Positions 3,043 to 33,948 of a stretch of DNA of 64,000 nucleotides are shown here, in pieces. The DNA is taken from contig JAQGOL010000037.1 in assembly GCA_028293625.1 (NCBI GenBank), positions 124,001 through 188,000 of the forward strand, read 5' to 3'. The stretch's first letter is position 1, and each line of letters begins with the position of its first letter. A model generated the notes under the pieces. It did not search any database. It was not told the DNA's origin and was given only the letters and a program-made list of their open reading frames with translations. The DNA is from Chthoniobacteraceae bacterium (GTDB lineage: Bacteria > Verrucomicrobiota > Verrucomicrobiia > Chthoniobacterales > Chthoniobacteraceae). Position numbers and translations under genes: made by a program.

Positions 3043-6000
3043 ATGAACAATCCCTCTCCTGGAAGCAAACGTCTCCCACTCGCCCGCTCCATCCAAATCC
3101 TTGCGCTTGCCGGCGTCGTATTTGGCGCATCGCAAGCCTCAGCCGACTATTTTTCTGTTGATACAATCACAGGCAACGCGGACTCGGGCGTCGATAGCGG
3201 TCGCAATTACGTTTCCATCAACAACATCGTCGGTGGAGATGTCATAGTAAACGGAGTCACTTTCGCCGGTGCCGAAACGTCCGGGACAGGCTGGACATTG
3301 AACGGTGCCGGTGCGCGGTTTGACGCGGGCGGCAATCATACGGGCATTACCGACAGCATCGCCTCGCTTTTTGATAACTTCCAATACAACGGGGCTCCTG
3401 CGGTCTTTAGCCTCAGCGGGCTCATCGCAGGCCAGACTTACCAGGCTACTTTCTACAACGAGGCATTCGGACTTGGCGCCGACCGCTCGCAAACCCTCAC
3501 CGCTGATTTGGGCGCTTCGATCCGTTATAACGAGGATGCCGTCAACGCCAGTGTGCTCAAATACACATTCGTGGCGACTGACACCACGACGAATATTTCG
3601 GTTTCCCCGGCCGTTGTTGCCAACACAATGCATTTTTACGGATTCAGCAATGAGATCCTAAATGCCTGGTCGCCAGCCTCCGACAGCTCATGGGATACCG
3701 CGGCAAACTGGTCAACCGGCGTGATTGCCAACGCGGTTGGGTCCACCGCAAATTTCGGCGCGCAGGCAGCCGCCACCGCTGTAACCCTTAATAGTGCGAA
3801 AACGGTTGGCTATCTGAGCTTCGGAGGAACTTCCTCCTATAATATATCCGGCACCGGCTCGATCACATTGCAGGCTACAGCCAACACCGGGTTATCGAGC
3901 GTCGATGTGGCGACCTCCGCCATTCATACGATTGGCACAAGCGTTGTCCTGACCGGCGATACTCAAAAAATCGGGGCTGGCAACCTTCACATCCAGGGAA
4001 ACGTTTCAGGCACGGGCGGATTTATCGTCAATAGCGGCGTCCTTACCTTGAGCGGTACAAACAGCTATGAGGGAACGACCAGAATCAACAACGGTGTCCT
4101 GCGCGTAGGCGCGTCGATCTCAATTGAGAACCCTGGATTTGAACTTCCCAACCAAGGCAACGGTGGCTTTACCTATGCGCCATCCGTGCCGGGCTGGACG
4201 CTTGCCGGCAATACCGGAATCGCGCAAAATAACAGTCCCTGGTATGTTCCGGCCGCGGTCGATGGAGTGCAGGCCGCATTTCTTCAAGGCGACGATGGCA
4301 CGGGGGCTGGCATCTCGCAGACGATTAATGTCGATACCGCAGGTCTTTATAACATCGGCTTTCTGGCCGTCGGTCGCAATGGCAACGGCCCAAATGGCCT
4401 GATCGTCAAGGTTGATGGTATCACAGCCCTCACCCTGGCGGAGTCTCAGTTTGATAATCTGAAATGGCAGGATTTTGCAACATCGGCTATCAACCTCACG
4501 GCTGGTTCGCACACGATTTCATTTGTCGGCAATAATCAGCTTGTTGGAGATAAAACCACGGTGATCGACCGCGTGCAGATCGGCCGCACCGGCCTGAATA
4601 CAAACGCGATTCCCGATAGCTCCATTGTCTCGCTTAATAGTGCTAATTCCACGCTCGATCTGAATGGGAACAACGAAACGGTCGGCTCGCTTATCGGCGT
4701 TTCAGGCAGCAAAGTCTTTCTGGGCAACGGCACTCTGACCACAGGCGGCAATAACTCGGATTCAATTTACGCGGGCGTCATCGCTGGGGCAGGTGGCGTT
4801 GTGACCAAGACCGGCACCGGCACGCTGACATTGACAGGCATCAATAGCTATAGCGGCGGCACGAACATCAACGCCGGCAAATTTAAGAGCGTGCTTGCCA
4901 ATTCCGCGGGATCGGGCCGGGTCTTTGTCGCGGCCGGCGCGACCTGGGAGCTTGGCGGCGAGAACCAGACGGTGGCCGGACTTTCGGGCGCCGGAGCCGT
5001 TACGCGTAACACCGCGCTGACCGGAGCGGTGGTGGGACCTACCGTTTTCACCACCAACGCGGGCTCGGGCATATCGGGCGCGGCGAACTACACTCACCTG
5101 CTTGACTTCGGCGATGGCGCGGGCGCTGTAATAAATGGAGTTGCCTTCACCAGCGCCGGCAATAATGGCGGAAACTGGAGTCTGACCGGAGCTACCAATT
5201 CCGTTCCCGAAGTCGCCGGCGCGCCGACCGCTCCGACGTTTGTCGACGCCCCCAACGGGACCGGATTCAATCAGCTCTATCAGGACTTCTATTACAATGG
5301 CAATCCGGGCGAACTGAAACTCAACAACCTGATAGCAGGCGAAAATTACGAGGCCCGCCTTTACAACCGCGTCTGGGGTGGTCCGCGTGTGCAGACACTG
5401 ACTTTCGATGATGGGAGCGGCACCCCGGCCGGCTTTACGTTTGACCAGGATGCAACTTCAAATCCGAACTATATCAGCTATAAGTTCACAGCCACCGCGC
5501 CAACACTGACGATCACGGCTACCCCGCAGGCGCCCGGATCGAGTTTTCATTGGTATGGGGCGACCGTTGAACAGATTGTCCTGACGCCGTCGACGCTGAC
5601 AGTGGGCGACTCGAACAACTATACCTTCGACGGTGTGCTTAGCGGAATCAACAATCTGGCCAAACAAGGCACCGGCATCCAGACATTGGCCGGCGCCAAT
5701 ACTTATACCGGCACCACGTTGGTAAGCGGCGGCACTTTGCAAGTTACCGGTTCAATCAGCGGTACTACCAGCGTGACTGTTAACAACAACGCCACGCTCC
5801 AGATCGGCGGCACCGGCAATCGAATCGCCGATACTGCCCCAATCACCCTTGGAGGCAACGGCGCGGGCGGCACGCTTAGCATGCAAGGATTAAGCGCGCA
5901 GAGCGAAGTTCTTGGGGTGCTTAAATTAGGCGAGTCGTCCACCATCGACTTCGGCTTGGGCAACAGCGATACGCTCCTTTTCTCCAAGCTGACACTGGCA

Positions 6001-6297
6001 ACTTATTCCCTGGCCGTGTTCAACTGGACCGGCACGCCATACAACCTGTCTGAAACCGCCGATCATGGTGGCACCCAGGACCATCTCACCTTCGCTCTCA
6101 ATGTTGGCGCCACCGACGCCAGCCGTATCTATTTCTATTCCGACAACGGCGCGACCTTTTTGGGCAGCGGGAAAACCATTAACTACGGCGGCGGACAATT
6201 TGAAGTGGTCCCGGTTCCCGAGCCCTCGGTGAGCGCACTTGCCGCCTTGGCTCTGGGTCTTGCGGGCCTCCGCCGGCGGCGGAGGACGGCAAGATAA
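3043..6297 (+). CDS. PEP-CTERM surface protein with autotransporter-associated beta-strand repeats
   Basis: A 1084-residue secreted protein. The ATG at 3043 begins a clear signal peptide that ends around ASQASA; the frame is open further upstream, but that part does not look like protein. Modules in order: an unnamed jelly-roll-like module (about 36-205), an autotransporter-associated beta-strand repeat (about 323-355), a DUF642/CBM-like segment starting IENPGFELP (about 359-516), another repeat (about 582-616), a second copy of the first module (about 667-845) and a third repeat (about 868-902). The C-terminus is a PEP-CTERM sorting signal: VPEPS, a hydrophobic helix, then five arginines. 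Such tails are recognised by an exosortase, which is not encoded in this window. Likely role: extracellular matrix or surface display. The high Gly/Thr/Asn content is normal for the family. Confidence 0.88.
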   Translation: MNNPSPGSKRLPLARSIQILALAGVVFGASQASADYFSVDTITGNADSGVDSGRNYVSINNIVGGDVIVNGVTFAGAETSGTGWTLNGAGARFDAGGNHTGITDSIASLFDNFQYNGAPAVFSLSGLIAGQTYQATFYNEAFGLGADRSQTLTADLGASIRYNEDAVNASVLKYTFVATDTTTNISVSPAVVANTMHFYGFSNEILNAWSPASDSSWDTAANWSTGVIANAVGSTANFGAQAAATAVTLNSAKTVGYLSFGGTSSYNISGTGSITLQATANTGLSSVDVATSAIHTIGTSVVLTGDTQKIGAGNLHIQGNVSGTGGFIVNSGVLTLSGTNSYEGTTRINNGVLRVGASISIENPGFELPNQGNGGFTYAPSVPGWTLAGNTGIAQNNSPWYVPAAVDGVQAAFLQGDDGTGAGISQTINVDTAGLYNIGFLAVGRNGNGPNGLIVKVDGITALTLAESQFDNLKWQDFATSAINLTAGSHTISFVGNNQLVGDKTTVIDRVQIGRTGLNTNAIPDSSIVSLNSANSTLDLNGNNETVGSLIGVSGSKVFLGNGTLTTGGNNSDSIYAGVIAGAGGVVTKTGTGTLTLTGINSYSGGTNINAGKFKSVLANSAGSGRVFVAAGATWELGGENQTVAGLSGAGAVTRNTALTGAVVGPTVFTTNAGSGISGAANYTHLLDFGDGAGAVINGVAFTSAGNNGGNWSLTGATNSVPEVAGAPTAPTFVDAPNGTGFNQLYQDFYYNGNPGELKLNNLIAGENYEARLYNRVWGGPRVQTLTFDDGSGTPAGFTFDQDATSNPNYISYKFTATAPTLTITATPQAPGSSFHWYGATVEQIVLTPSTLTVGDSNNYTFDGVLSGINNLAKQGTGIQTLAGANTYTGTTLVSGGTLQVTGSISGTTSVTVNNNATLQIGGTGNRIADTAPITLGGNGAGGTLSMQGLSAQSEVLGVLKLGESSTIDFGLGNSDTLLFSKLTLATYSLAVFNWTGTPYNLSETADHGGTQDHLTFALNVGATDASRIYFYSDNGATFLGSGKTINYGGGQFEVVPVPEPSVSALAALALGLAGLRRRRRTAR

Positions 6298-27164: not shown

Positions 27165-29624
27165 ATGAGCTTAAATATCGAGCCTTACCCGACGAGACGG
27201 ATCAAAATCATTCAGATCGCCCTCCTTGGCTTCCTGTATTATGGCGCCGCTTGGATCGGCCTGAGGTTTTCGTTTGAAAAAAGCAACGTTTCGCCGGTCT
27301 GGCCTGCGGCAGGATTCGCATTGGCAGGGATGCTGTCACTCGGATGGCGTGCCTGGCCAGCGATCTTTCTCGGTGCGTTCGCGGCGAACGCGACAAATTT
27401 ATTGAGCGGTCCCGCCCTCCCATTTTGGACAGTTTCCTGGGTCTCGGCCGTAATCGCCTTTGGTAATACGGTGGAGGCGCTCTTTGGCTGGTTTTTATAC
27501 CGTCGATACTCACAAAAAATCCGGGAAGAAGCAGCGCCGGACCTTTTCGTCGAGGGAATCAACGTCTTCGAATTTGCCGCCCTGGCGTTGTTAATGTGCC
27601 TCTCCGGCGCATTCATCGGGGTAACAACGGTCTGCGCAGCGGGACTCGCTCCCTGGATTCAATACCGGCTGCTCTGGCGACTCTGGTGGTTTGGCGATGC
27701 CTCCGGAGTTCTGCTTGTGACCCCTTTCGTGCTGGCCTGGGCGCAAGCGCCTCGAATCGAGGGGGCAAAGTGCGTTTGGAGGGAGCCGGCCCTGACTTTC
27801 CTTTTGCTTGCACTAAGCTGCTGGTGGGGCTTTGGACGAAGCCGGGAAATGCAATCGTTCCCATACCTGACCATCATCGTTCCAATGGTCTGGATCAGCA
27901 CGCACCTCGGCCTGCGCGCAGTAACCGGCGGCCTCATATTTGTCTGGGTGTACGCAGTCTGGCAAACCGTTCGTCACGCCGGTCTTTTTGTCGGCATTCC
28001 GGAGCATGCATTGTTGCTCCGTTTATTGCTGTTTCTTTGGGTGGCATCCCTCACGAGTCTGGCTCTGGCAGGCACAGTCGAGGCTTTGAAGAAAAGCGAG
28101 GCGAACCTTCAAAAGCTCAATAAACAGTTGGAAAATCGCGCCACAAAGCACACCGCAGAATTGCAAAGCTCCCATGAAGCGCTCCAAGCCGAAAGCTTTG
28201 ACCGGGCGGAGGCAGAGAAAACCCGGGCACACCTGGCGGCCATTGTCGAATTTAGTCTGGATGCCATTTTCAGCAAAACCGTGGACGCGGTTGTTACAAG
28301 CTGGAACCGTGGCGCTGAGCAGCTCTACGGTTATACGGCCGCTGAAATGGTCGGCAAATCCGTCTCCTTATTGATCCCGCCCGACTATAAGGATGAACTT
28401 GCAAGGATGATGGCGAGTATCCGGCAGGGCGAGCCAATCAAGCATTACGATACAAAACGAGTCCGCAAGGATGGCCATCGCATCGATGTCTCGCTAAGCA
28501 TTTCGCCGATCTATGATCAGAGCGGGCAACTTATTGGATCCTCAACGATTGCCCGTGATATCGCCGAGCGGATTCGGGTCGAAGAAGCACTGAAGGAGAG
28601 TCAGGAGCGGCTTAAACTGGCATTGGACGCGGCGCAACTTGGTACCTGGGACCTCGATCTGGTGACTCACAATGTCATCCATTCGCTTCGGCACGATCAA
28701 ATCTTCGGTTACGCCGAGGCGCTCCCGGAATGGAGCTATGAACGATTTCTAACCTGCGTCCATCCGGAGGATCGCACCCGGGTTGACTCTGAGTTTCAGG
28801 AGAGTGTGGCCGCTGGTCGCGATTGGGCTTTTGAATGCCGCATCTTCCGGGCCGATCATTCGCCCGGTTGGATCTGGGCTTGCGGCATTCTTTTGAAAAA
28901 CAAAATGGGAAAACCCGCGCGAATGGTCGGAATAGTCGCCGACATTACTGAGCGCAAGGAAGGGGAACAGAAACTGAAAGAGGCTCTTAAAAAAGAAGTG
29001 ATTCTGCGTCGAGAGATCCACCATCGGGTCAAAAACAATCTCCAGGTGATCACCAGCCTGCTCTATCTCCAATCCGTTCACCTCAGCGATCCCAGAATCG
29101 TGCAATTGTTACGCGAAAGCCAGTCGCGCATCCGCTCCATCGCACTCATCCACGAGTTACTCTGCCGCTCCAAAGATCTGGCGAAAATTCCAGTCGCCGA
29201 ATATGTCCGAAATTTGACCATGGATCTTTCAGTCGCCTATCGCGTCAATCCGGACGTGATCTCCTTTAAGATCCATGCGGAAGGCATTTTCCTCAGCCTT
29301 GACCCGGCTATCCCGTGCGGATTGATCGTTAACGAGCTGGTCTCCAACTCCCTCAAACACGCTTTCGTCGATGGACGCGCAGGCTGGGTCGCCATTGATC
29401 TGCAACCCGTCGATTCCGGCCTTCTAAGATTAAGCGTGCGCGACAACGGACTTGGATTGGCACCCGGATTTGACCTCGAAAACGTGCGCACCATGGGATT
29501 GAGATTGGTGCGCGACCTGGTGCGGCAGCTGAATGGGACGCTCGCACTCAGCTACGTGCATGGGACACAGATAACAATCACTTTTGCCAATTCGGACACG
29601 CTCGACTTTACGCCTCGTCGCTGA
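27165..29624 (+). CDS. MASE1-PAS-PAS sensor histidine kinase (HisKA_2 type)
   Basis: 819 residues. A good ribosome binding site, GGGGGAG (27153-27159), precedes the ATG. Residues about 10-310 are a MASE1 multi-helix membrane sensor (FEKSNVSPVWPAAGFALAGM, WPAIFLGAFAANATN). A coiled-coil follows, then two PAS domains (about 353-470 and 480-605), then a HisKA_2 dimerisation domain with the phospho-acceptor in REIHHRVKNNLQ (H619/H620) and a HATPase_c domain (LIVNELVSNSLKHAF, DNGLGL). It should autophosphorylate on a membrane or cytosolic cue and pass phosphate to a receiver protein. Its C-terminal kinase half is strikingly similar to that of the hybrid at 32524-33948. Possible partner: that hybrid protein. 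Confidence 0.9.
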   Translation: MSLNIEPYPTRRIKIIQIALLGFLYYGAAWIGLRFSFEKSNVSPVWPAAGFALAGMLSLGWRAWPAIFLGAFAANATNLLSGPALPFWTVSWVSAVIAFGNTVEALFGWFLYRRYSQKIREEAAPDLFVEGINVFEFAALALLMCLSGAFIGVTTVCAAGLAPWIQYRLLWRLWWFGDASGVLLVTPFVLAWAQAPRIEGAKCVWREPALTFLLLALSCWWGFGRSREMQSFPYLTIIVPMVWISTHLGLRAVTGGLIFVWVYAVWQTVRHAGLFVGIPEHALLLRLLLFLWVASLTSLALAGTVEALKKSEANLQKLNKQLENRATKHTAELQSSHEALQAESFDRAEAEKTRAHLAAIVEFSLDAIFSKTVDAVVTSWNRGAEQLYGYTAAEMVGKSVSLLIPPDYKDELARMMASIRQGEPIKHYDTKRVRKDGHRIDVSLSISPIYDQSGQLIGSSTIARDIAERIRVEEALKESQERLKLALDAAQLGTWDLDLVTHNVIHSLRHDQIFGYAEALPEWSYERFLTCVHPEDRTRVDSEFQESVAAGRDWAFECRIFRADHSPGWIWACGILLKNKMGKPARMVGIVADITERKEGEQKLKEALKKEVILRREIHHRVKNNLQVITSLLYLQSVHLSDPRIVQLLRESQSRIRSIALIHELLCRSKDLAKIPVAEYVRNLTMDLSVAYRVNPDVISFKIHAEGIFLSLDPAIPCGLIVNELVSNSLKHAFVDGRAGWVAIDLQPVDSGLLRLSVRDNGLGLAPGFDLENVRTMGLRLVRDLVRQLNGTLALSYVHGTQITITFANSDTLDFTPRR

Positions 29625-29831: not shown

Positions 29832-30218
29832 ATGAGCATAAATGATGACTCAGATACCCGGAGTTTAACAACGGTACCAGCCGGCGAGACGAACACCTCC
29901 CCGCCTGCACCCAACATCGGTTTTGTGGCGCTCAGTAAGTTCGTCATCGCCAACGGAATGGCGCCCCAGGTGAAGGACGCCTTTCGGAACCGTCCGCATC
30001 TGGTTGATGGAGTCCCGGGCTACGTGCGCATGGAGGTCCTCAGCCCTGTGGAACGGACTGAAGAGATCTGGCTCCTGACCTATTGGACAGATGCCGGGAG
30101 TTTTAAGGCCTGGCATCACAGCCATCTCTATCACGACTCCCACAAGGGTATTCCCAAAGGATTAAAGCTGGTGCCGGGGGAAACAAAAATTACGGAATTT
30201 GAGCACGTCTGCAGTTAA
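29832..30218 (+). CDS. Antibiotic biosynthesis monooxygenase / haem-degrading (HmoA-like) protein
   Basis: 128 residues from the ATG at 29832. After a disordered Thr/Pro-rich start, residues about 28-125 form a dimeric ferredoxin-like ABM fold: ALSKFVIANGMAPQVKDAF, VPGYVRMEVLSPVE, EEIWLLTYWTDAGSFKAWHH, SHLYHDSHKGIPKGLKL. The W-T-D-x-x-S-F-x-x-W pattern and following histidines match HmoA/IsdG-type haem monooxygenases, though many ABM proteins have other roles. It lies 10 bases before the cobalamin sensor and probably starts that operon. No bacteriophytochrome is nearby to use a biliverdin product, so its job here is open. Confidence 0.75.
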   Translation: MSINDDSDTRSLTTVPAGETNTSPPAPNIGFVALSKFVIANGMAPQVKDAFRNRPHLVDGVPGYVRMEVLSPVERTEEIWLLTYWTDAGSFKAWHHSHLYHDSHKGIPKGLKLVPGETKITEFEHVCS

Positions 30219-30228
30219 GTTTGAAGCC

Positions 30229-31302
30229 ATGAGTCTGATTTCTCTCGAGGTCAGCGAAGCCATTCTGTGTCAGCGGGCGGCAATCGCCGAGAAGCTCGCG
30301 GCAAGGGAATTCGCCCGGCGGCCTGAACTTGAGAAGCGGTATGGCCGGGTTGGCCGCGACAAATGCGTGCAGGATGCGGGCTATCACCTCTCCTATCTCG
30401 CCGAGGCGGTCGCGACGGATAATCCCAACCTGTTCGCAGACTACATTGGCTGGACAAAAGTCATGCTCGCCCGCCGGGGAGTGCCGACTAGTGATCTCAC
30501 TTTGCATTTGGAATCGATGGGAGAAGTATTGAATGAGATCCTTCCCGCTGCGCTCAGCCTGCCCGCCCGGCAAATCGTCGAGCAAAGTCTGCTGCGGCTT
30601 CCGGATTATCCTGATGACCTGCCAAGTTTCATGGGGCCAGGCCACCCGCACTCGCTTCTCGCGCACCAATACCTTCAGTCACTGCTGCGCGGCGAACGCC
30701 ATATTGCGAGTCAGCTGATTCTTGATGCCGTAAAGCGCGGGGTCACAATCAAGGAAATCTACCTCGACGTCTTTCAACGCACCCAATACGAGATCGGACG
30801 CCTCTGGCAGACCAATCAGATCTGCGTGGCGCGGGAGCATTACTGCACGGCCGCCACGCAGCTGATTATGTCACAACTTTATCCCTACATCTTCACAGGA
30901 GAGAAGCACGGGGGCACCTTCATCGGCACCTGCGTCGCGGGAGATCTTCACGAGATCGGTGTGCGCATGATCACTGACTACTTTGAGATGGCCGGCTGGG
31001 ACACCTATTACCTCGGCGCCAACACCCCCCATGAGAGCGTGGTCCGGACAGTCACGGAGCGCAAAGCCAACGTGCTCGGCATCTCCGCCACGATCACCTA
31101 CCACGTGCACGACGTGGAGCAGCTTATTCGAAAAGTGCGCGCGGAGCCGACATGTGGCGGAGTGAAAATTATTGTGGGCGGATATCCTTTTAACATTGCA
31201 CCAGGTCTTTGGCGCGCGGTTGACGCGGACGGTTCGTCACGCGATGCCGCCGGTGTGGTTACGCTTGTTGAAGAGCTCACCGGAAGGAAGGCCACCTCAT
31301 GA
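30229..31302 (+). CDS. Stand-alone cobalamin-binding sensor with CarH-like W-x9-EH photoreceptor motif
   Basis: 357 residues from the ATG at 30229. The first 130 or so residues are an unrecognised helical domain (RYGRVGRDKCVQDAGYHLSY). A B12-binding-2 four-helix module (about 140-225) follows, then a Rossmann B12-binding domain (about 230-345). The cobalamin lower-ligand motif DxHxxG is D239-L-H241-E-I-G244; later cobalamin contacts are ISATITYHV and VGGYPF. W193 and E203-H204 form W-x9-EH, the signature that caps adenosylcobalamin in the CarH photoreceptors. Unlike CarH there is no MerR DNA-binding domain, and the residue after the Trp is Gln, where T. thermophilus CarH has the light-state His132. 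It overlaps the following kinase by ATGA, so I infer that it signals to that kinase. A methyltransferase-related B12 carrier is the alternative. Confidence 0.85.
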   Translation: MSLISLEVSEAILCQRAAIAEKLAAREFARRPELEKRYGRVGRDKCVQDAGYHLSYLAEAVATDNPNLFADYIGWTKVMLARRGVPTSDLTLHLESMGEVLNEILPAALSLPARQIVEQSLLRLPDYPDDLPSFMGPGHPHSLLAHQYLQSLLRGERHIASQLILDAVKRGVTIKEIYLDVFQRTQYEIGRLWQTNQICVAREHYCTAATQLIMSQLYPYIFTGEKHGGTFIGTCVAGDLHEIGVRMITDYFEMAGWDTYYLGANTPHESVVRTVTERKANVLGISATITYHVHDVEQLIRKVRAEPTCGGVKIIVGGYPFNIAPGLWRAVDADGSSRDAAGVVTLVEELTGRKATS

Positions 31303-32537
31303 TTGGATCAAATACTGGAAAGGGAATCGCCGTGCTCTGCGACGCGGAGGGAATCGTGCAATCCATTGTGCGCGATGAGCTCGATCTCGCCTCGCGAGTG
31401 CCGCCCGGGGCAAGCGTTTTGCGGCTGGCAGACCCGGTTGATGAGGAAAAGGCGCGCCAGTTCCTGCTCGCACTGCAAAGCCGCAAGGCCACGTTTGACT
31501 GGGAAATCACGGTGCGCTGGCAGGGCGAACTCACTCCATTGCATTTCGCCGGAGGCCAGGTGGAAAGCGGTTTCCTTGTGGTAACCGCGCTCTCCCGAGA
31601 CAGTCTTGCGCTCGTTAATGAAGAATTAATGCGCATCAACAACGAGCAAACAAATGCGCTCCGCTCGACGGCTAAAGAACTGGCCGCGCTGGGCCGCTCC
31701 CGTCCCGAACGCGACGGCCTCTTCGACAAATTAACCCGAGTCAACAACGACCTGGCCAACCTGCAGCGTGAGCTGGCCAAAAAGAACTTTGAACTTGCTA
31801 AACTCAACGAGCAAAAAAATCTGTTTTTAGGTATTGCCGCACACGATCTGCGCAGTCCTTTGGGTGTCATACTGACCTACAGCGAGTTTCTGGAAGCGGA
31901 AATCGGACCGACGCTCACCGTGGAATCGCGAGCGTTTGTTTCGATCATCAAGGATACGAGCGAGTTTCTGCTCCGGCTCATTGACGATCTTCTGGATGTG
32001 TCGCAGATCGAATCAGGCAAGTTAAACCTCAATCTCCAGCCAACCAGCCTCACTGAACTGGTGAGCCGCAGCGTGGCCCTTAACCGGTTACTGGCCGAGA
32101 AGAAACAGATTCGCATGGTATTTGCCGCCGACGCAACACTGCCCACCCTTTTGATTGACCCCGGCAAGCTCGATCAGGTGCTTTATAATCTGCTGACCAA
32201 CGCGGTGAAGTTTTCCTATCCCCATACCGAAATCAGCGTTCGTTTAACCCGGGAAAGCGAGCATGCCGTGATTACCGTGACCGATCACGGGCAGGGTATC
32301 CCCGCCGACGAACTTGAAAAACTCTTCAAGCCCTTCAGCCGCACCCGGGTGCGCAGCACTGGCGGGGAAGCCAGCACCGGTCTTGGGCTCTCAATCGTGC
32401 ACCGGATCGTAGAAGGCCACCATGGCACCGTCAGTGTCAAATCGATGGTGGGCAAGGGCTCTTCGTTTCAAGTCCGATTGCCTTTGATTGAAGCGGCCAA
32501 AGGCGCAAATTCGTCTTCCTGTTATGGACCTGGTTAA
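31299..32537 (+). CDS. Soluble histidine kinase coupled to the cobalamin sensor
   Basis: 412 residues, without a transmembrane segment. Residues about 8-100 look like a small PAS-type domain (GIAVLCDAEGIVQSIVRDEL, GQVESGFLVVTALSRD). A long coiled coil (about 102-175) leads into HisKA with phospho-acceptor H182 (GIAAHDLRSPLGVI) and HATPase_c (LYNLLTNAVKFSYPHT, VTDHGQGIPADELEKLFKPF, TGLGLSIVHRIVEGHHG). Its ATG overlaps the stop of the cobalamin sensor gene (ATGA), and it overlaps the next gene by 14 bases, so the three are translationally coupled. Inference: the B12 sensor changes this kinase's activity by direct contact, and phosphate passes to the receiver domain of the next protein. Confidence 0.9.
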   Translation: MIGSNTGKGIAVLCDAEGIVQSIVRDELDLASRVPPGASVLRLADPVDEEKARQFLLALQSRKATFDWEITVRWQGELTPLHFAGGQVESGFLVVTALSRDSLALVNEELMRINNEQTNALRSTAKELAALGRSRPERDGLFDKLTRVNNDLANLQRELAKKNFELAKLNEQKNLFLGIAAHDLRSPLGVILTYSEFLEAEIGPTLTVESRAFVSIIKDTSEFLLRLIDDLLDVSQIESGKLNLNLQPTSLTELVSRSVALNRLLAEKKQIRMVFAADATLPTLLIDPGKLDQVLYNLLTNAVKFSYPHTEISVRLTRESEHAVITVTDHGQGIPADELEKLFKPFSRTRVRSTGGEASTGLGLSIVHRIVEGHHGTVSVKSMVGKGSSFQVRLPLIEAAKGANSSSCYGPG

Positions 32538-33948
32538 GCAAACGCGGATGCGAATTCTGGTCGTCGATGATGATCCCGTGGCGCTTGCTGCCATGCGAAG
32601 GCTGCTCTCTGAAGCCGGACATGAGGTGATGATTACCAACACCGGCGAAGAAGGGTTGCGCCTGGTGCGCGAACTGTTGCCTGATCTGGTTTTGATGGAT
32701 GTTAATCTGCCCGGTATCAGCGGCATGGAGGCCGTCAAGAGGCTCAAGGCGGACCCTGCCCTGAGCTCGATTTTTGCCGTGAACGTGTCGTCGAGTTTAA
32801 CCACTTCGGAAAACCAAGCATCCGGTCTCAACGCGGGAGCTGACGGCTATATTGTCCGGCCCATTCCCAACCGGGAATTACTCGCGCGTGTGAATGCATT
32901 TCTTCGTCAAAAAAAAATGGCGGATGCCCTGCGCGCCAGCGAGGAACGGTTCTCAAATTCATTTGAATTCGCGCCCATCGGCATCGCTCTGGTGGCAATG
33001 GACGGGAAATGTTTGAAGGCTAACCGCGCACTCTGCGAAGCGCTCGGTTACTCTGAAGCCGAATTGCTCACCCGCTCATTCCAGGAGATCACGGATCCCG
33101 ACGATCTGGAAATCGATCGGGAGAACCGGCAAAAACTGGTCTCCGGAGAAATCCGCTCCTATCAGATAGAGAAACGCTATCTGCATATCAGCGGCCATAG
33201 CTTGGTTGTATTATTGAATATTTCAATAGTCCGCGATATCCATCGCGAACCGCTCTATTTCATCCTTCACATTCAGGACATTACCGAGCGCAAACGGACT
33301 GAGAAGAAGCTTCAGGAAGCCTTAAAAAAAGAAGCGCTTTTGCGCAAAGAAACCCATCATCGGATCAAAAACAACCTGCAGGTAATCGCCAGCCTTCTTT
33401 ACCTTCAATCCCAGCATGCCACCGACTTGGCCACGATGGAAGTCTTGCGCGAAAGCCAGCATCGTACCCGCTCTATCGCGCTCATTCACGAAAAGCTCTA
33501 TCAAAGCAGCGACCTATCAAAAATCGAACTTTCCGGCTACTTGCAGGAGTTGGCGGCGAGCTTGTTTGAATCGTATCGGACTCCCTCCGGGAGCGTCGGT
33601 TTCAAAATCAGCGCTGAAGGCATTTTTCTCGAACTCAACGCGGCGATCCCGTGCGGTTTGATTCTCAACGAACTGATTTCCAATGCGCTAAAGCATGCCT
33701 TTCCGGAGGAAAGACGCGGGGAGATCGTCATCAATTTCAAAGAAATCACGAACAATACGCTCAAGCTCAGCGTTTGCGACAATGGCGTCGGCTTGCCGGA
33801 GGGGTTTGATCCTGCAAAAGTGACGACGCTTGGAATCAAGCTGGTATGCGATCTTACCAAACAGTTGGATGGAACAGTGGAATTTAGGAATGCGCGAGGA
33901 ACAACGGTGGAGATCACTTTTCCGAAGCCACAACCGGATGCGAGTTGA
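32524..33948 (+). CDS. Receiver-PAS-HisKA_2 histidine kinase (hybrid output kinase)
   Basis: 474 residues from the ATG at 32524. An N-terminal receiver domain (about 9-125) has the acidic triad D15-D17 and phospho-acceptor D59 (LVLMDVNLPG); the conserved switch Lys is replaced by Arg (R112 in VRPIPN). A PAS domain follows (about 138-255), then HisKA_2 with ETHHRIKNNLQ (H278/H279) and HATPase_c (ILNELISNALKHAF, CDNGVGLPEGF). It therefore can receive a phosphate and also autophosphorylate. The final acceptor is not in this operon. The kinase half closely resembles that of the MASE1 kinase 3 kb upstream, suggesting duplication. An upstream TTG (32488) is an alternative start. Confidence 0.88.
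   Translation: MDLVKQTRMRILVVDDDPVALAAMRRLLSEAGHEVMITNTGEEGLRLVRELLPDLVLMDVNLPGISGMEAVKRLKADPALSSIFAVNVSSSLTTSENQASGLNAGADGYIVRPIPNRELLARVNAFLRQKKMADALRASEERFSNSFEFAPIGIALVAMDGKCLKANRALCEALGYSEAELLTRSFQEITDPDDLEIDRENRQKLVSGEIRSYQIEKRYLHISGHSLVVLLNISIVRDIHREPLYFILHIQDITERKRTEKKLQEALKKEALLRKETHHRIKNNLQVIASLLYLQSQHATDLATMEVLRESQHRTRSIALIHEKLYQSSDLSKIELSGYLQELAASLFESYRTPSGSVGFKISAEGIFLELNAAIPCGLILNELISNALKHAFPEERRGEIVINFKEITNNTLKLSVCDNGVGLPEGFDPAKVTTLGIKLVCDLTKQLDGTVEFRNARGTTVEITFPKPQPDAS

Follow-up and report, generated by a model that had tools for sequence, protein, structure and literature searches.

The window analyzed here is a 64,000-nucleotide stretch of a Chthoniobacteraceae bacterium genome (contig JAQGOL010000037.1, positions 124,001 to 188,000). 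At 29832-33948, four open reading frames, all on the plus strand, encode an ABM-like protein, a B12 protein, a histidine kinase and a receiver-PAS-kinase. We read them as a self-contained photocobilin-kinase light-sensing operon in which gene 1 would supply the bilin enzyme and gene 4 the relay, an interpretation to which we assign a probability of roughly 60%. Gene 1 (29832..30218) encodes 128 residues. For gene 2 (30229..31302), ATG 30229 is a likelier start than TTG 30199, the first one in its frame, because the homolog P0006 begins at that ATG in the alignment; this start would give 357 residues and leave 10 bases between genes 1 and 2. The overlaps described in the initial annotation are exact: gene 3 (31299..32537) shares ATGA with gene 2 at 31299-31302, and gene 4 (32524..33948) shares 14 bases with gene 3 at 32524-32537.

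Gene 2 is a standalone photocobilin with its globin placed first. Photocobilins themselves are already known, as a class of B12/biliverdin photoreceptors described in 2024 (PMC10979010; here and below, statements from cited papers refer to the portions of text available). Their groups carry the B12 domain at either end, and the function of the standalone members has been termed 'less clear' (PMC10979010). The initial annotation had called gene 2 a B12 sensor. Pfam bears out the B12 module (B12-binding_2, 50.1 bits; B12-binding, 80 bits), a four-helix cap followed by a Rossmann part with DLHEIG and H251 (30661..31242), but the globin half had been overlooked. The closest PDB sequences are those of SasPcob, 8j2w and 8j2x, which align over two separate segments. 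One is the B12 module; in the other, gene 2 residues 47-113 pair with the globin located at the C-terminus of SasPcob. The two domains are therefore in reversed order, and the bilin-type globin (photoglobin) forms the N-terminal half of gene 2 (30229..30609). The Phycobilisome Pfam match to residues 15-115 is sub-threshold (E 0.0073; 16.7 bits vs a cut-off of 22.2). In an AlphaFold2 model built from 3 sequences (predicted local distance difference test, pLDDT, 78.7), residues 4-137 resemble a phycobilisome chain (Z 15.2, root-mean-square deviation 2.7, 134 aligned) and residues 149-363 resemble the photocobilin structure 8j2y (Z 24.5). The modeled B12 module thus scores as a photocobilin fold (Z 24.5 and 24.3 for SasPcob/AbDPcob), with CarH chains lower (Z about 18).

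The residues that would hold both pigments are conserved. W203, E213-H214, H251, D59 and W85 of gene 2 are identical to the key SasPcob residues Trp61, Glu71-His72, His108, Asp270 and Trp296 (PMC10979010), the chain being offset by 6 from the paper's numbering, as derived from Trp61, and the D59/W85 correspondence coming from a gapless alignment. Gene 2 therefore shares with SasPcob and AbDPcob the photosensor motif of the cap (W203-x9-E213-H214), the lower-ligand His (H251) and the biliverdin Asp and Trp, and it differs from SasPcob in its N-terminal globin and in the replacement of His137 by Ser (S280). Judging from these residues, gene 2 probably binds adenosylcobalamin and a bilin; as a photocobilin combining B12 with a bilin globin, it is expected to respond to red and green light. 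With CarH/LitR, gene 2 has the B12 photosensor module in common, but it carries a globin, has no MerR-type DNA-binding domain, and its output would pass through a kinase. The NCBIfam CarH model scored 41.7 bits, far below its cut-off of 400, and covers only the B12 part of gene 2. We rejected a CarH-like repressor because Pfam and NCBIfam scans found no DNA-binding domain in gene 2, and also a corrinoid methyltransferase shuttle, as MtgC/MtbC-type scores stayed well under their cut-offs and gene 2 carries the photosensor W-x9-EH; no search of the neighborhood aimed at methyltransferases was made.

The pairing of photocobilin and kinase is real and conserved. We compared 36 photocobilin-type loci with their flanks and counted 25 full-length copies from several phyla, the window, two A. 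brasilense strains and two Skermanella included; left out were globin-less proteins (L048-L050, L062, L065-L069), a split copy that has an adapter-kinase (L063), and L064, where neither a globin match nor a partner was found. The next gene encodes a histidine kinase at 18 of the 25 full-length copies, and a signaling-type partner is present at 22. This supports the earlier proposal that the kinase naturally takes its input from the B12 protein; homologs lacking a kinase as a rule, which the genome-neighborhood check could have revealed, were not seen, and because the pair recurs in distant genomes it is no chance arrangement.

Gene 3 is a soluble histidine kinase (HisKA, 53.6 bits; HATPase_c, 105.5 bits; both above cut-offs) that opens with an adapter (31299..31808) made of a PAS-like domain and a coiled coil (NNDLANLQREL). 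The coil, already noticed in the initial annotation, is conserved in a 15-row alignment. The PAS-like domain described with it has no Pfam match in gene 3, and its assignment comes from a low-confidence model and from PAS_4, which matches related adapter proteins weakly. A Foldseek search with the adapter model (pLDDT 59.8, 2 sequences) returned nothing at E <= 0.001, which is no evidence of a new fold. Fifteen of the 18 kinase partners are full adapter-kinases. An Azospirillum locus (L007) splits adapter and kinase between two frames that overlap; the L047 partner has ABM and PAS-like domains ahead of the kinase, and that of L044 has a coil and a HisKA_2 kinase. A GGDEF partner with the adapter lies beside the photocobilin in L043 and L011, and in L045 and L046 the partner is a short protein that has the coil and a tail rich in Cys.

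Globin-less B12 proteins also adjoin adapters, fused to STAS in L048, L049 and L050, and the globin-less L062 has a kinase neighbor with the coil; the adapter therefore probably reads the B12 module. Since GGDEF or STAS outputs follow it elsewhere, the adapter looks like a general photoreceptor reader that is not kinase-specific. In the window's phylum, a kinase lies alongside 4 of 5 globin-less matches (L065, L067, L068, L069), and a search for the coil pattern did not find it there. The adapter-STAS fusions lie directly upstream of the globin-less proteins (L048 2413-3264, L049 5290-6144, L050 4942-5868), and adapters without an output domain occur next to a B12 photoreceptor at L163 7390-7992, L048 1208-1696 and L049 4179-4652. 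A STAS link has been predicted for SasPcob (PMC10979010).

Gene 4 encodes a receiver-PAS-HisKA_2-HATPase hybrid (Response_reg, 79.4 bits; HisKA_2, 96.7 bits; HATPase_c, 46.5 bits; and PAS), with receiver and kinase domains above cut-offs. Pfam and NCBIfam scans found no DNA-binding domain in the operon proteins; together with the receiver at the start of gene 4, this fits the relay put forward in the initial annotation rather than CarH-like DNA binding. Gene 4 is the probable phosphoryl recipient, as its domain make-up suggests. Four other loci (L004, L054, L062 and L063) likewise have a receiver or receiver-PAS hybrid after the kinase. The gene 4 receiver has Arg-Pro where receivers usually have Lys-Pro, as does the 1126-residue receiver hybrid of the Chloroflexota locus L004.

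Gene 1 belongs to a Ser-Trp-His subfamily of ABM-fold proteins and is a candidate bilin-forming heme oxygenase. ABM is its sole Pfam match (41.8 bits vs a cut-off of 23.1), with no match to the heme oxygenase family PF01126. The initial annotation described it as heme-monooxygenase-like. Its PDB matches are MhuD, HmoB, IsdI and IsdG; the HmuQ model (NCBIfam NF053649) gave 36.8 bits, far below its cut-off of 130. Eight positions are invariant across 56 subfamily sequences (S35, N41, R54, P55, W85, W94, H104 and P108). The IsdG catalytic triad is Asn-Trp-His (PMC5557675). Like IsdG, MhuD and HmuQ, gene 1 has the ABM fold and the triad Trp (W94) and His (H104); unlike them, it has Ser for Asn and lies in a photoreceptor gene context. 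An ABM gene sits directly upstream of a photocobilin in the window, in L051, L052 and L058 and in 8 loci of the Pontibacter family, and 208 bases upstream in L053. At L047 (7139-8716), ABM is fused to the N-terminus of the PAS-like histidine kinase that directly follows the photocobilin. From this context and the phytochrome loci described below, we infer that gene 1 probably belongs to the light-sensing machinery and may act as an alternative bilin-forming heme oxygenase. A shortened ABM frame of 58 residues, probably a remnant, precedes the photocobilin of G1100 (L055, about 5976-6149), and a tblastn search of plasmids with gene 1 returned weak relatives only, of about 30% identity (30/31 records from Thermus).

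The ABM subfamily also often lies beside phytochromes in the Pontibacter family, where, at the loci sampled, it occupies the position otherwise held by heme oxygenase. In the Pontibacter family, ABM occurs in 49 of 90 genomes at 50 places; a photocobilin follows at 8 and a phytochrome lies within 6 kb at 28. No heme oxygenase was found at these 28 within the stretch examined, which at 26 places comprised flanks of about 6 kb or the part of the contig retrieved, and at two (L121, L126) 1.5 kb. In the 80 genomes searched for PHY, ABM was beside a phytochrome in 24/45 cases vs 0.2 expected. Co-occurrence is uninformative in this family, with a phytochrome in 74/80 genomes, and we therefore relied on adjacency and heme oxygenase presence. 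Heme oxygenase lies beside the phytochrome at 20/20 loci from ABM-negative genomes vs 0/20 from ABM-positive ones (Fisher p 1.5e-11, uncorrected for phylogeny). The former come from 20 of the 32 phytochrome-bearing ABM-negative genomes, first in list order; the latter are 20 loci from 19 genomes, picked because ABM is not beside the phytochrome. Across the sampled loci (L087 4359-6324, L128-L167, L168-L187 and L188-L207), the bacteriophytochrome is accompanied by an ABM gene or by a canonical heme oxygenase, but not by both. For heme oxygenase, the Pontibacter-family genomes were checked around the phytochrome, and G098 (Pontibacter diazotrophicus) beyond it. The latter genome has ABM 113 bases upstream of a bacteriophytochrome and no PF01126 match; in its solitary photocobilin, Gly replaces the bilin Asp. 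This photocobilin (L003 8001-9931) has as neighbors a TPR and an EtfB-like gene, both named by eye; at the same site, relatives (L104, L108, L112 and similar) carry an ABM gene in its place.

A whole-genome heme oxygenase search covered the 25 genomes with photocobilin-type matches. Seven have a strong ABM match and three have PF01126, G000 having both, so that 6 of the 7 photocobilin genomes in which ABM matches strongly have no PF01126 at all. The genome of the window carries a heme oxygenase gene directly ahead of its phytochrome and ABM ahead of its photocobilin. Bacteriophytochrome operons with heme oxygenase are known as bphO-bphP. The window operon resembles them in grouping a gene for a presumed bilin enzyme with those for a bilin photoreceptor and a kinase, but its photoreceptor is a photocobilin and its candidate enzyme has the ABM fold rather than PF01126.

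We propose that gene 1 would open heme to a bilin, which gene 2 would hold in its globin alongside adenosylcobalamin in its B12 module. Light would then break the Co-adenosyl bond, green directly and red via the bilin, and by analogy with SasPcob the quaternary state of the photocobilin would shift. The altered protein would act on the gene 3 adapter and switch the histidine kinase, in a direction that may depend on the pigments, SasPcob with adenosylcobalamin alone being opposite in behavior to SasPcob with both (PMC10979010). The kinase would phosphorylate the gene 4 receiver, and the HisKA_2 kinase of gene 4 would hand the signal to a further regulator. Protein anatomy and gene context lend good support to the light-switch part of this scheme; newer, and more open to testing than any other claim, is the proposed role of gene 1 as the pigment enzyme. 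We lean, by a narrower degree of confidence, toward a broader proposal: that the ABM Ser-Trp-His proteins form an unrecognized class of bilin-forming heme oxygenases, which would replace heme oxygenase at the phytochromes of Pontibacter relatives and supply photocobilin-kinase operons across phyla, and that a portable PAS/coiled-coil adapter would link B12 photoreceptors to kinase, cyclase or STAS outputs.

Parts of this picture have precedents. The globin was reportedly named photoglobin earlier, by Schneider in 2022, in work whose abstract is said to report gene-neighborhood links to signaling domains, and the kinase association in general may already be in print. The available text of the SignatureFinder paper (PMC11796333) does not mention 'kinase'. 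Unlike SasPcob and AbDPcob, gene 2 shares its operon with genes for a kinase, a receiver-kinase and an ABM protein. BBAG-2 bilin globins, which can be separate proteins, are associated with B12 proteins and canonical heme oxygenase (PMC10151467); the window operon is similar in combining a bilin globin with a B12 protein and a presumed heme-oxygenase function, but its candidate is an ABM protein, and the available portion of that paper mentions neither a kinase nor ABM. We found no report linking ABM/IsdG proteins to bacteriophytochrome or biliverdin in the texts searched, most subscription literature lying outside them. If true, the proposal would give standalone photocobilins a concrete partner and an enzyme read-out, would explain the pigment supply of bilin-photoreceptor bacteria without recognizable heme oxygenase, and would make a green- and red-light-controlled two-component system rebuildable from three or four genes, with output swapping behind a single adapter as a ready design rule for optogenetics.

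Several results weigh against this reading. Ser replaces the catalytic Asn of the IsdG triad in all 56 sequences, a position placed by alignment through MhuD, with what we take to be the catalytic Asn of that protein. Fourteen of the 50 Pontibacter-family ABM places are near neither photoreceptor, and a partner gene is missing beside the full-length photocobilins of L003, L008 and L009. The ABM/heme-oxygenase label changes at least twice on a tree of 67 phytochromes; with changes as few as about two, the contrast reflects few independent events. Two results that speak for the pairings carry a reservation: the profile of kinase residues 1-170 matched 12/296 Bacteroidota genomes (E <= 1e-10), 12/12 directly beside a photocobilin, but 11 of the 12 had served to build that profile; likewise, the ABM subfamily was found in 5/296 (E <= 1e-12), 4 of the 5 just upstream of a photocobilin, but those four had been in the profile, the fifth being G098. 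Finally, both PF01126 and a strong ABM match are absent from 16 of the 25 photocobilin-type genomes, among them nine whose photocobilin is full-length and has an adapter partner (G097, G806, G943, G997, G1029, G1044, G1076, G1089, G1100). Such genomes must either draw their bilin from some other source or manage with B12 alone.

The first of these results, the 16 genomes lacking both enzymes and the L047 fusion, which suits a signaling part more than a free enzyme, would be expected if the photocobilin-kinase part is right and ABM binds, chaperones or senses heme or bilin, so as to load the chromophore or report on it. We regard this as a secondary possibility, the strongest of the alternatives: the triad Trp and His are invariant, ABM occupies the heme oxygenase place at phytochromes with mutual exclusion in our sample, and the six ABM-positive genomes without PF01126 would need another bilin source. 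Slightly less probable, and unlikely in our estimation, is that the photocobilin is bilin-free in practice, a plain B12 sensor of green light or cobalamin with a structural globin. The many genomes without a recognized bilin source fit this idea, as do the adapter neighbors of globin-less B12 proteins (L048-L050, L062) and AbDPcob, which is light-responsive despite weak biliverdin binding (PMC10979010). Against it, the bilin-site Asp is kept in 21/25 full-length copies and the Trp in 25/25, both in all 15 with a full adapter-kinase, and ABM or heme oxygenase is present in 9/25 genomes, the window's included. That the genes merely travel as a group with no joint function, the cassette being a by-product of shared transfer, is improbable: full-length copies are so rare (1/97 related genomes, the window's own included, and 1/387 genomes of the phylum) that the cassette was probably transferred, and correlated distances (r 0.63, 0/2000 permutations) are also expected from co-transfer, but the adapter is seen only beside a photoreceptor in the 296 genomes and stays while its output swaps to GGDEF or STAS.

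Around the light-sensing operon, no B12 riboswitch matched Rfam at gathering scores within window positions 20000-45000, and promoter and terminator scans gave results not above chance. A MASE1-PAS-PAS-HisKA_2 membrane kinase (27165-29624) ends 207 bases upstream and was left out of the operon count. It shares 43% identity with the PAS-kinase half of gene 4 and is perhaps a duplicate addressing the same target.

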